Origin: Desulfobacterales bacterium
Lineage (GTDB): Bacteria; Desulfobacterota; DSM-4660; Desulfatiglandales; Desulfatiglandaceae
Assembly (NCBI GenBank): GCA_022013615.1
Contig: JAKLQB010000291.1
Span: forward strand, 1-6,138
Reading direction: 5' to 3'
DNA: 6,138 nucleotides
A model generated the notes under the pieces. The model searched no databases. It was not told the origin of the DNA and was given only the letters and a program-made list of their open reading frames with translations. The translations under genes were made by a program, and so were the position numbers. Of the stretch, positions 1,208 to 5,425 are shown one piece after another; within the stretch, counting starts at the first letter, position 1; each line of letters begins with the position of its first letter.

Positions 1208-1309
1208 AGGTGCTCGTGTAGCTCAATAGGGAACCCCGTTAAAGTCGGGGACGGACCCGCCGCTGTAGTCCCGACCTTTTCTTTGTCCAAAAGAAAAGGA
1301 AACCTTTTT
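1208..1309 (+). promoter_or_regulatory. Cobalamin-riboswitch-like leader RNA, 5' core conserved, 3' half atypical
   Basis: Positions 1208-1266 follow the 5' half of the cobalamin riboswitch in order: an opening AGGT, a small GCT/AGC stem (1212-1222), the AATAGGGAA box (1225-1233), stem P5 CCCCG/CGGGG (1234-1250) closing a TTAAAGT loop, and the hallmark CGGACCCGCCGCTGT (1252-1266). GGG (1229-1231) can pair with CCC (1256-1258) as P4. The 3' parts of the classical element, the GCCACTG joining segment, the GGGAAG box and a full B12 box, are not found. Instead a 10-bp hairpin (1275-1299) and AGGAAACCT follow. AGGT (1208-1211) could close with ACCT at 1274-1277 or 1302-1305. It lies on the correct strand upstream of an operon that ends in a B12-type radical SAM gene. 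It may be a compact variant or a degenerate remnant; the ligand is inferred from family resemblance. Confidence 0.6.
1275..1309 (+). promoter_or_regulatory. Two mutually exclusive hairpins, possible expression platform
   Basis: CCTTTTCTTT (1275-1284) pairs perfectly over 10 bp with AAAGAAAAGG (1290-1299) across a 5-nt loop. The last six bases of the second arm, AAAAGG (1294-1299), can instead pair with CCTTTT (1303-1308) across an AAA loop. The second hairpin has no separate T-tract, because the T-run 1305-1309 forms its own 3' arm, and it is AT-rich and short, so it would be a poor intrinsic terminator. The overlap means only one hairpin can form at a time, as in a regulatory switch. Low GC in both stems keeps confidence modest. 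Confidence 0.35.
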
Positions 1310-2555: not shown

Positions 2556-4794
2556 AAAAAGGGATACCATTAACGGACGGGCCTGCTGGGAATTTCTGTC
2601 CTGTTCCAAGGTACTCTGCCCTGCTCACAGCAAGAGTGAATCAGACTGCTGGCTTATCCCCAGGACACAATGCAGTAATTACATTGGAGAGGATTTTTTT
2701 AAAAAAATGTCCAGCTGTTTGGCTTGCCCCTATTTCAAGGCCAAGGGAGAGAATCACTCTCGGGGCCATGACCATTTTCTCGCGGATCAGGTTCAGAGAT
2801 ACAATTTCAAGGCACTGGAACAGATATATCAGAAGGAAGAGAGCTTTATTGAGATCCTGAACCGTATCCCCGACGGGCTATTCACCACGGATGCGGAGTG
2901 GCGGATTACCTACTTTAATCCTGCTGCTGAGAAGATTACAGGCTTTTCTGCATATGATGCAGTGGGTATGTATTGTAAGGATGTCTTTAAGAACACAATC
3001 TGCGAAACCGATTGTGCCCTCAAACGGGCTGTAGCCGAAAAAAGCGACATCCACAATCGGGAGTATGAGATTACCAACATTGATGGCAAACAGGTACCCA
3101 TTATATGTTCCACTTCCGCCTTTCGCGATAGTTTGGGAAATATTACAGGTGGTATTGAGATATTTAAAGATATTACAGAACTGAAGAGGCTGCAGGAAGA
3201 GATTGCAAAAAGGGAGAGGAAATACCGTCGAATCTTTGAAGGCAGCCGCGAAATGATCTATACAACGAATGAGCCCGGGAAGATTCTGGCTGTGAACCAG
3301 GCCGGGGTGGAAATGTTGGGATATAAAAGGAAGGATGAGCTATTGGGGATCGACCATGCAGAGCGGCTCTACTTTAAACCCAGTGACCGGGACAGGTTTA
3401 TAAAGAGAATAAATCATGAGGGATTCGTTAAGGACTATGAGGTCGATTTCAAGAAACGCGACGGCTCCCCTATTCATGTCTTGATATCAAGCCGGAGATA
3501 CGAAAACCTGGAGACCGGCGATATTGAGTACGAGGGGATTATCAAGGACATCACACGACGAAAGCGTGCAGAAGATGTCCTCAAGCAGCGGAACCTGGAA
3601 CTCTCTATTTTAAACAACATTGCTCTGACCTTGAACCTCACAAGGGACCTGAACCACATCCTGACGAAGACCCTGGAACACGTACTAAAGGTTCTGGGCT
3701 TAAAACGCGCGGCAATCTTCCTAATTAACAGAGAAGAAAAAACGGCCAGGCTTCAAGTGAGACAGGGCCTTCCCGGGGAAGATACCGAGAACGAAGATAA
3801 GATCATCTTCAAAGATACCCTACTTATGCAACACATCGTAAAAGAGAAGACGCTGCTCACCCCTGAACCGGCTTTCCCCTGTTTCCGGGCAAGATATAAA
3901 ACCATAAAAGGCAGAACTTCCCGCTGGTTATCCTGCTTTCTCATCACCTTTAAAGGAAGGGCGGTCGGGTTTTTTGGGCTGGATATCCCGTCCACTCGAA
4001 ATCTGAGCGACCACGAGATCCATCTTTTGGGTTCTCTTGGGAACTATCTCGGTGGGGCCATTGAGAACACCCAGCTCACAGATACAATTCGTCTCCATCA
4101 ACAGGAATTGCGGAGGCTTACGGAGAAACTGTTCCAGAGACAGGAAGAGGAACGACGCCGTATCGCCCGGGAGCTACATGATGAGGCCGGACAGGCACTG
4201 ACAGCCATAAAATTGGGCCTGGATAGGTTGGAAGAGAATGTGACCTCAAAGCCTGAGCATCTCAAAAAGGACATCAGCGAGATCCGAAAGATGATCACTC
4301 GAACGGCATCGGAAATGAGGCGCCTCTCATATCGCCTTCACCCCACCCTGTTGAGCGATCTCGGGCTGGAGCCTGCACTGGAACTCTATTTTAAGGAGGT
4401 AAAGAATCACTCCGGTATGGAAATTGAGTTCCATATGGTAGGGTTTGATCAGCGGCTCGATGCTGACGTGGAGACCGTTCTCTATCGATTCAGCCAGGAG
4501 GCGCTCACAAACACTTTGAAACATGCGAATGCCCAGCATTTCCGTCTCTCCATTATAAAGAGCTACCCCAATATTATCTTCTTGGCTGAAGACGACGGGA
4601 TTGGATTCGATAGCAGAATTGTAAGAACGAATCAGATGAGTTTAGGGCTGCTTGGCATGCGGGAGAGGGCCTCTATGCTTGGCGGGACTTTACAGCTCCG
4701 AACCAAGCCCTCAGAGGGGACCCGGATTCGGATAGAGATACCCTTAACCGAGGCACATTGCTATGGTAAAACCCATAAGAATTCTGCTCGCTGA
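2512..4794 (+). CDS. Cytosolic NarL/DesK-type sensor histidine kinase (CW-PAS-PAS-GAF-HisKA_3-HATPase)
   Basis: The 760-residue protein has no membrane segment, so it should sense inside the cell. A Cys-rich domain (25-72) starts with CWE and carries Cys 25, 31, 36, 46, 54, 69 and 72, a pattern seen in deltaproteobacterial sensors that may bind metal. PAS 1 (about 111-225) has C155, C164 and C168; PAS 2 spans about 236-352; a GAF-like domain spans about 364-522. A helical linker (525-550) leads to HisKA_3 with phospho-acceptor H556 in ELHDEAGQ, which includes the HDxxxQ motif linked to phosphatase activity. The ATPase part has an N-box (QEALTN, 662-667), DDGIGFD (694-700) and LGLLGMRER (711-719). 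The start GTG is chosen for its ribosome site. The gene overlaps the second V4R gene by 44 nt and the regulator by 32 nt. The regulator is its probable partner; the signal is unknown. Confidence 0.92.
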   Translation: MSSLLEDHLISASLKKRDTINGRACWEFLSCSKVLCPAHSKSESDCWLIPRTQCSNYIGEDFFKKMSSCLACPYFKAKGENHSRGHDHFLADQVQRYNFKALEQIYQKEESFIEILNRIPDGLFTTDAEWRITYFNPAAEKITGFSAYDAVGMYCKDVFKNTICETDCALKRAVAEKSDIHNREYEITNIDGKQVPIICSTSAFRDSLGNITGGIEIFKDITELKRLQEEIAKRERKYRRIFEGSREMIYTTNEPGKILAVNQAGVEMLGYKRKDELLGIDHAERLYFKPSDRDRFIKRINHEGFVKDYEVDFKKRDGSPIHVLISSRRYENLETGDIEYEGIIKDITRRKRAEDVLKQRNLELSILNNIALTLNLTRDLNHILTKTLEHVLKVLGLKRAAIFLINREEKTARLQVRQGLPGEDTENEDKIIFKDTLLMQHIVKEKTLLTPEPAFPCFRARYKTIKGRTSRWLSCFLITFKGRAVGFFGLDIPSTRNLSDHEIHLLGSLGNYLGGAIENTQLTDTIRLHQQELRRLTEKLFQRQEEERRRIARELHDEAGQALTAIKLGLDRLEENVTSKPEHLKKDISEIRKMITRTASEMRRLSYRLHPTLLSDLGLEPALELYFKEVKNHSGMEIEFHMVGFDQRLDADVETVLYRFSQEALTNTLKHANAQHFRLSIIKSYPNIIFLAEDDGIGFDSRIVRTNQMSLGLLGMRERASMLGGTLQLRTKPSEGTRIRIEIPLTEAHCYGKTHKNSAR

Positions 4795-5425
4795 AGATCA
4801 TACAATTGTTCGTCAGGGATTGGCCCGTCTGTTGGAAGACCAGCCTGACCTCAAGGTTGTCGGCGAGGCCACCAACGGTCGAATGGCCATGGAAAAGGCC
4901 ATTGAATTAAAACCGGACATCGTCATACTGGATATCACCATGCCCCTTATGAACGGGATCGAGGCAGCCAAGAGAATCAGGAAGGAATTACCCCAGACCA
5001 AGATACTGATCCTCTCCATGTACTCCCACGAACATTATATTCATGAACTGCTCGAGACGGGTATTTCAGGGTACCTCCTTAAGGACTCCAGTGGCCGCGA
5101 CATCATAAAGGCCATTCAGGCAGCAATGAGGGATGAGACCTTTTTAAGTCCAACCATATCCAAAAAGCTTGTGGATACATATCTCTCTCCCAGGAAGAGT
5201 TCATCCAGGGAAGAGCGTTACAAACAGCTATCCAACAGGGAGAGGGAGGTGTTTCAGCTTATTGCGGAAGGCCACTCCACAAGGGAGATCGCTGACATGC
5301 TGTTTGTGAGCGTGAGCACTGTGAAATCCCACCGAAGCAATATTATGGAAAAACTCGGGATTTACAACACTATTAAACTTGTTCATTTTGCCATCCAACT
5401 CGGGTTGGTGGACCCTGATCTTTAA
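4763..5425 (+). CDS. LuxR/NarL-family response regulator
   Basis: The 220-residue protein has a receiver domain (about 5-122) with acidic pair E11/D12, phospho-acceptor D57 in ILDITMP, S85 and K107, all the residues needed for phosphotransfer. A linker leads to a LuxR-type helix-turn-helix (about 154-210) with LSNREREVFQLIAEG and the recognition region STVKSHRSNIMEKLG. This is the usual length and order for NarL/FixJ-type transcription regulators. ATG 4763 lies within the end of the kinase gene, preceded by GAGG (4750-4753) with a 9-base gap, so the pair is probably translationally coupled. Its targets are unknown. The operon's own promoter, the divergent membrane-protein gene or the downstream radical SAM gene are candidates, but no clear inverted-repeat operator was seen. 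Confidence 0.95.
   Translation: MVKPIRILLAEDHTIVRQGLARLLEDQPDLKVVGEATNGRMAMEKAIELKPDIVILDITMPLMNGIEAAKRIRKELPQTKILILSMYSHEHYIHELLETGISGYLLKDSSGRDIIKAIQAAMRDETFLSPTISKKLVDTYLSPRKSSSREERYKQLSNREREVFQLIAEGHSTREIADMLFVSVSTVKSHRSNIMEKLGIYNTIKLVHFAIQLGLVDPDL

Follow-up and report, generated by a model that had tools for sequence, protein, structure and literature searches.

What stands ahead of the V4R/two-component operon in this Desulfobacterales contig, where a cobalamin riboswitch core seems to lack its 3′ half? The earlier note on this DNA described a compact core in which one AT-rich hairpin had taken the place of the missing half. It offered three readings, namely a minimal variant, a re-purposed core or a decayed element. 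We analysed the whole stretch of 6,138 nt, here called the window. Its features are as follows.

2-1018, opposite direction to the operon: gene without a family match
1166-1193, + strand: promoter-like pair, TTGACT (1166-1171) and TAAAAC (1188-1193) with a 16-nt spacer, picked out by eye
1203-1210, + strand: 5′ strand of P1, TGTTCAGG, usual partner absent (lineage alignment and model)
1212-1222, + strand: P2 hairpin GCT/AGC, weaker than in relatives (alignment, predicted pairing)
1225-1266, + strand: conserved core with AATAGGGAA, P5 with loop TTAAAGT, and CGGACCCGCCGCTGT (RF00174, lineage model)
1275-1299, + strand: 10-bp AT-rich hairpin; related riboswitches normally have it as a helix of their P6 accessory arm, and the pattern is also terminator-like
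1301-1310, + strand: 5′ strand of the next accessory helix, AACCTTTTTA; its partner GCTAAAAGG is absent and clear homology stops
1347-1361, + strand: possible remnant or replacement of J6/3 and the P1 3′ strand, AGAAAACC overlapping CCTGGCTA
1416-1940, + strand: first downstream gene, encoding a V4R-domain protein with an HCHHYN motif
1941-2555, + strand: second V4R-like protein
ending at 4794, + strand: PAS/GAF histidine kinase
4763-5425, + strand: LuxR-type response regulator
5452 onward: start of a gene with a sub-cut-off B12-binding match

The leader keeps the 5′ two-thirds of a class-I cobalamin riboswitch

The 5′-half motifs named in the earlier note are present and in order. These are AATAGGGAA (1225-1233), P5 (CCCCG-TTAAAGT-CGGGG, 1234-1250) and CGGACCCGCCGCTGT (1252-1266). 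The Rfam covariance check that it had proposed gave a match to RF00174 at 1190-1325, just over the gathering cut-off (31.9 against 31.5 bits, E 2.5e-05). AdoCbl-II and AdoCbl-variant were set aside as better families; cmscan, which reports the best clan member for each place and shows no separate scores for these two, gave RF00174. Matches to RF00174 occur in 39 of the 43 genomes searched, and the family is thus common there.

We also scored the window with R3, a full-length lineage model made from 22 related riboswitches. The result was 65.1 bits at 1203-1400, towards the bottom of the range seen for other elements. Complete elements outside the training set of R3 scored from 158.1 (L116) down to 38.8 bits, and L088, a member of the model, scored 194.8 bits.

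Positions 1203-1310 of the window are what remains of a class-I cobalamin riboswitch at its 5′ side, and this part is little altered. The Desulfobacterota form of the riboswitch with a P6-arm hairpin (e.g. L088) has in common with the window the 5′ strand of P1, P2, AATAGGGAA and P5. It also shares CGG.CCCGCCGCTGT, the AT-rich hairpin, ACCTTTTTA and the spacing of the promoter box. Unlike in that form, the rest of the riboswitch beyond ~1310 is absent or unrecognisable in the window.

Predicted pairing in the window was at most 0.14 for a possible P1, 0.17 for P2, 0.10 for P4, 0.47 for P5 and 0.98 for the hairpin. The corresponding medians in 22 relatives were 0.98, 0.86, 0.52, 0.80 and 0.87. 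Folding of the leader was no better than that of shuffles (z -0.88). The predicted ensemble argues against a folded core in the window.

The AT-rich hairpin is an ordinary part of the P6 arm

To place the hairpin we used R1, a model made from the window and locus L079, and searched 389 genomes of the class of genome G001 (E up to 0.1). At least 342 of these genomes had matches, and the 30 matches fetched as loci are cobalamin riboswitches. When aligned, the relatives have the layout ..CCGCTGTAACCCCGCCCTTTTC..GAAAAGGGAACCTTTTTAGC..GCCACTG..GGGAAGGC.GCTAAAAGG..GTCAGAAGACCTGCCTGAAC, with variations. Full-length Desulfobacterota relatives carry the same AT-rich hairpin in the same place, after CCGCTGT; ACCTTTTTAGC follows it, and the helices of the P6 arm covary. 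In the 22-row alignment, 96.0% of cells in the hairpin helix are paired, with two-sided change in 3 of 8 pairs. The next helix, CCTTTTTAGC with GCTAAAAGG, is 98.0% paired (two-sided change in 2 of 9 pairs). P1, formed by the 5′ strand and a CCTGAAC-type far 3′ end, is 97.2% paired (two-sided change in 5 of 8 pairs). Two-sided change occurs at 21 pairs of the structure as a whole. The shuffle mean was 10.0, none of 500 shuffles reached 21, and 4-6 such pairs were found when the structure was slid.

Because relatives carry the hairpin and ACCTTTTTA as paired, covarying helices, both are normal riboswitch parts. The proposal that the hairpin replaces the 3′ half is thus not borne out. Furthermore, since full-length relatives share the hairpin, the loss begins after ~1310 and not at 1266. 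When the element is set beside homologous riboswitches that belong to other genes, its conservation continues past 1266 to ~1310, as ordinary riboswitch sequence, and AACCTTTTTA (1301-1310) is exact in 7 of the 22 relatives. By its pattern, the hairpin together with the AAACCTTTTT behind it resembles a terminator (1 found, 0.4 expected).

The earlier note also had AGGT (1208-1211) closed by ACCT (1274-1277), giving a unit of ~70 nt. ACCT stands at the aligned columns in 3 of the 22 full-length rows, and in relatives the 5′ strand of P1 pairs with the far 3′ end instead. Neither the closure nor the short unit is supported. The Rfam alignment, for its part, maps ACCT at 1302-1305 to the terminal GGAGACCU. 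Relatives pair AACCTTTTTAGC with GCTAAAAGG, and we rejected the mapping as a register error, a placement forced because the rest of the riboswitch is missing.

A 3′ third is not detected in the window

We searched for the remainder of the riboswitch with R2, a model of the 3′ half with 75 positions, run unfiltered and allowing E values as high as 10. On the + strand between 1302 and 1736 no match was listed; by this search GCCACTG, GGGAAGG and the 3′ strands of the P6 arm are absent there. Over the whole window the best R2 match reached only 9.2 bits and lies on the other strand (673-723). An HMM built from the relatives' tails, the span of which includes P13/L13, found no 3′ part at the right place and nothing at 1347-1361. 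R3 forces 1390-1400 into the 3′ end, and the core motifs are absent from that segment. We therefore rejected a 3′ third concealed further down the window, as R2, R3 and the tail HMM give none at the right place. The nearest sequence to GCCACTG is CTCACTG (1318-1324), which was rejected as a remnant because its resemblance does not exceed that of shuffles (268 of 1000). The claim that GCCACTG and the 3′ half are absent stands, with R2 silent on the + strand at 1302-1736.

A control panel was drawn from the best 115 R1 matches listed, minus 5 within 231 bases of a contig start. The 110 loci that remain are the 30 first fetched, including the R1 model member L087, and 80 more. A 3′ half is recognisable in 109 of these 110 related 5′ halves, again the best R1 matches listed, and the other one runs off its contig. 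This is L123, the one among the 80 further loci without an R2 match, where the contig ends inside the 3′ half. R2 matched behind the 5′ half, on the right strand, in 79 of the 80 further loci, with at least 41 bits in 74. Five loci scored lower, at 12.6-34.3 bits (L189, L178, L179, L190 and L167), and 3′ motifs were found by eye in all five. In all of the first 30 loci a GTCAGAARACCTG-type motif lies behind the core; for L098 the motif script took another element, and R2 gives the 3′ half there 73.9 bits.

No further complete locus with the window's truncation was present among the 110 checked, a panel in which weaker truncated elements may be missed, since the window itself went into R1 and the loci are the best matches listed. 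A search for closer orthologues yielded matches in the single genome of the G040 family and in 3 of the 46 genomes of the G041 family, solely at places already known, and viral contigs gave no match. In titles and the openings of abstracts, we noticed no published account of the window's truncated element.

The promoter-like box and the downstream operon

In the window, a TTGAC[AT] box begins 59 nt before the AATAGGG core. A box of this type lies 51-83 nt before the core in 74 of the 102 related loci with a located core, compared with a background of 86 in 2200. The promoter scan listed no + strand promoter here, including the TTGACT/TAAAAC pair.

The protein encoded at 1416-1940 matches V4R with 19.5 bits, under the Pfam cut-off of 31, and PF02830 is present in many of its homologues, among which P0001-P0015 show 80-97% identity. 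Across 28 aligned V4R proteins, the HCHHYN motif is invariant save for one residue. Our ortholog set has 45 loci from genome contigs with titles that are mostly Deltaproteobacteria or Desulfobacterota. Both V4R genes and the kinase are found in 40 of them and the regulator too in 33; several loci end too early. R3 detected no riboswitch in sense ahead of the operon in any of the 45, of which 39 have at least 390 nt upstream. L025 has a divergent riboswitch upstream of a glycosyl-transferase-3 type gene, and L021 has a weak R3 match on the other strand (E 0.14).

Genes lying closest to the operon on its upstream side in relatives included cobW (4), BtuR/CobO (3) and MtrH (2) among 10 loci tested, which were hand-picked from 36 listed, so that these shares are no estimate of frequency. 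The operon is nonetheless likely to have a corrinoid link. This conserved set of two V4R genes, a histidine kinase and a response regulator, with cobW, BtuR/CobO or MtrH genes as neighbours in relatives, is an uncharacterised, probably corrinoid-linked signalling module. A tRNA-Sec gene lies ~3 kb from the V4R gene in L005 (1740-1832, - strand).

A candidate closing strand at 1347-1361

Downstream of the hairpin, AGAAAACC (1347-1354) resembles J6/3 at 8 of 8 positions, and CCTGGCTA (1354-1361) resembles the P1 partner at 7 of 8. The combined match, 15 of 16 positions, was equalled in 3 of 1000 shuffles. It was also equalled in 2 of 110 non-overlapping + strand windows, both representing one site. 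These odds are flattered because the match was found after looking. The first motif test of the candidate strand was weaker (68 of 1000 shuffles). In local alignment of the region to 99 real tails, 127 of 500 shuffles and 26 of 110 windows did as well. Set against J6/3 AGAAGACC and the P1 3′ strand, the segment is a borderline match on which the tail HMM is silent. The segment 1347-1361 is a possible remnant or replacement of J6/3 and the P1 3′ strand.

The segment matters for one alternative, that of a shortened class-I riboswitch that still works, with a P6 arm of one hairpin and a core closed by AGAAAACC and CCTGGCTA. We consider this unlikely. The match at 15 of 16 positions speaks for it, yet the match was found after looking, the tail HMM and R2 are silent at 1347-1361, and the alignment to real tails is unremarkable. 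In addition, J6/3-P3 and P1 would have to share a single CC, and predicted P1 pairing is at most 0.14. The 5′ core is well kept, and this weighs on the other side. As the 5′ part has changed little, either decay was recent or the part is still useful, and the latter counts against a mere leftover. The adjoining CobW, BtuR/CobO and MtrH genes in relatives also favour a working form, since B12 control of the operon would make sense in a corrinoid neighbourhood. So too does natural variation in the length of the P6 accessory region, which a passage of PMC9600662 describes.

Insert-split and damaged riboswitches elsewhere

L079 (1813-1935) was first taken as a second member of a compact class present in two genomes. 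The locus is instead a full riboswitch split by an inverted-repeat insert, and the class was rejected. The ends of the insert form the inverted repeat GAGACCTTTGAAAAA .. TTTTGCAAAGGTCTC. The insert separates the two riboswitch halves in L087 (identical with the L079 site), L105, L110, L161 and L171, and sits behind the 3′ half in L102 and L124. At least one insert end occurs in 13 of the 110 riboswitch loci and 3 of the 45 operon loci. The insert looks like a MITE tolerated by riboswitch arms.

In the split riboswitches (L079/L087, L105, L110) the 5′ half alone looks truncated, and L079 shares the window's hairpin. Such loci raise the prospect that an insertion also divided the window's riboswitch and left the 3′ half beyond the window. 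We find this barely credible. Split riboswitches keep their 3′ halves behind the insert, whereas the window has neither 3′ half nor insert, and no copy of an L079-type insert end. R2 never rose above 9.2 bits over the whole window, and the operon itself would have to sit between the halves. An assembly chimera, in which a contig ending inside a riboswitch was joined to a contig with the V4R operon, is highly improbable. Joins of this kind are possible, given that one genome may have several similar riboswitches (matches in 39 of 43 genomes), but there is no direct sign of one.

Damaged cobalamin riboswitches do occur, as L076 and L077 were found outside the panel. L076 (684-819, - strand, genome G041) has no 5′ core and keeps its 3′ half. 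The gene behind it, from the start of its protein, we take to be cobT-like. This riboswitch is incomplete like that of the window and comes from a related genome, but the opposite half is lost. A V4R homologue with 80% identity across residues 4-86 is also present in G041. L077, from the RF00174 search, has a 5′ half with the contig end 285 nt further on. At 1701-2104 of this locus, an inverted repeat, ATTTCGTTATCAG .. CTGATAATGAAAT, comes after the 5′ half and directly precedes AAGCCACTG. L077 may be a further riboswitch split by an insert, cut off where the contig ends.

Origin and function of the leader

Among the three readings first offered, decay fits best, because relatives have the window's parts together with the missing third and no like truncation was found in the 110 best R1 matches listed. 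A compact working form keeps the small chance given above. As the last third of the riboswitch is gone, we think it probable that the truncated class-I cobalamin riboswitch is a non-sensing leftover, leading the V4R/two-component operon without B12 control. The window element is most likely a dead, degenerate member of a known riboswitch class.

A deletion or rearrangement probably fused the promoter and 5′ two-thirds of a riboswitch to the V4R/two-component operon. The second strands of the P6 arm, J6/3, the second strand of P1 and the P13/L13 platform would have been lost. In the simplest history, the source would be the riboswitch of another B12-regulated gene; deletion, replacement and transfer are all candidates. 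J6/3 contributes to the cobalamin site. With J6/3, P1 and L13 missing, neither this site nor the switch would be expected to form, so that the RNA would not sense cobalamin. A kissing loop between L5 and L13 couples ligand state to the platform, according to a passage of PMC9600662. The operon would then be transcribed from the riboswitch's old promoter, freed of B12 control. The leftover hairpin may act as a passive leader or, at most, a weak attenuator.

The locus is also a warning that a match barely over the Rfam cut-off may come from a relic aligned in the wrong register. Were the compact form real, it would help to show how small a P6 arm a class-I cobalamin riboswitch can tolerate, and would tie the V4R/two-component operon to B12 control. 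On the reading that we favour, the window would provide an example of a riboswitch promoter and broken sensor becoming the leader of an unrelated operon.
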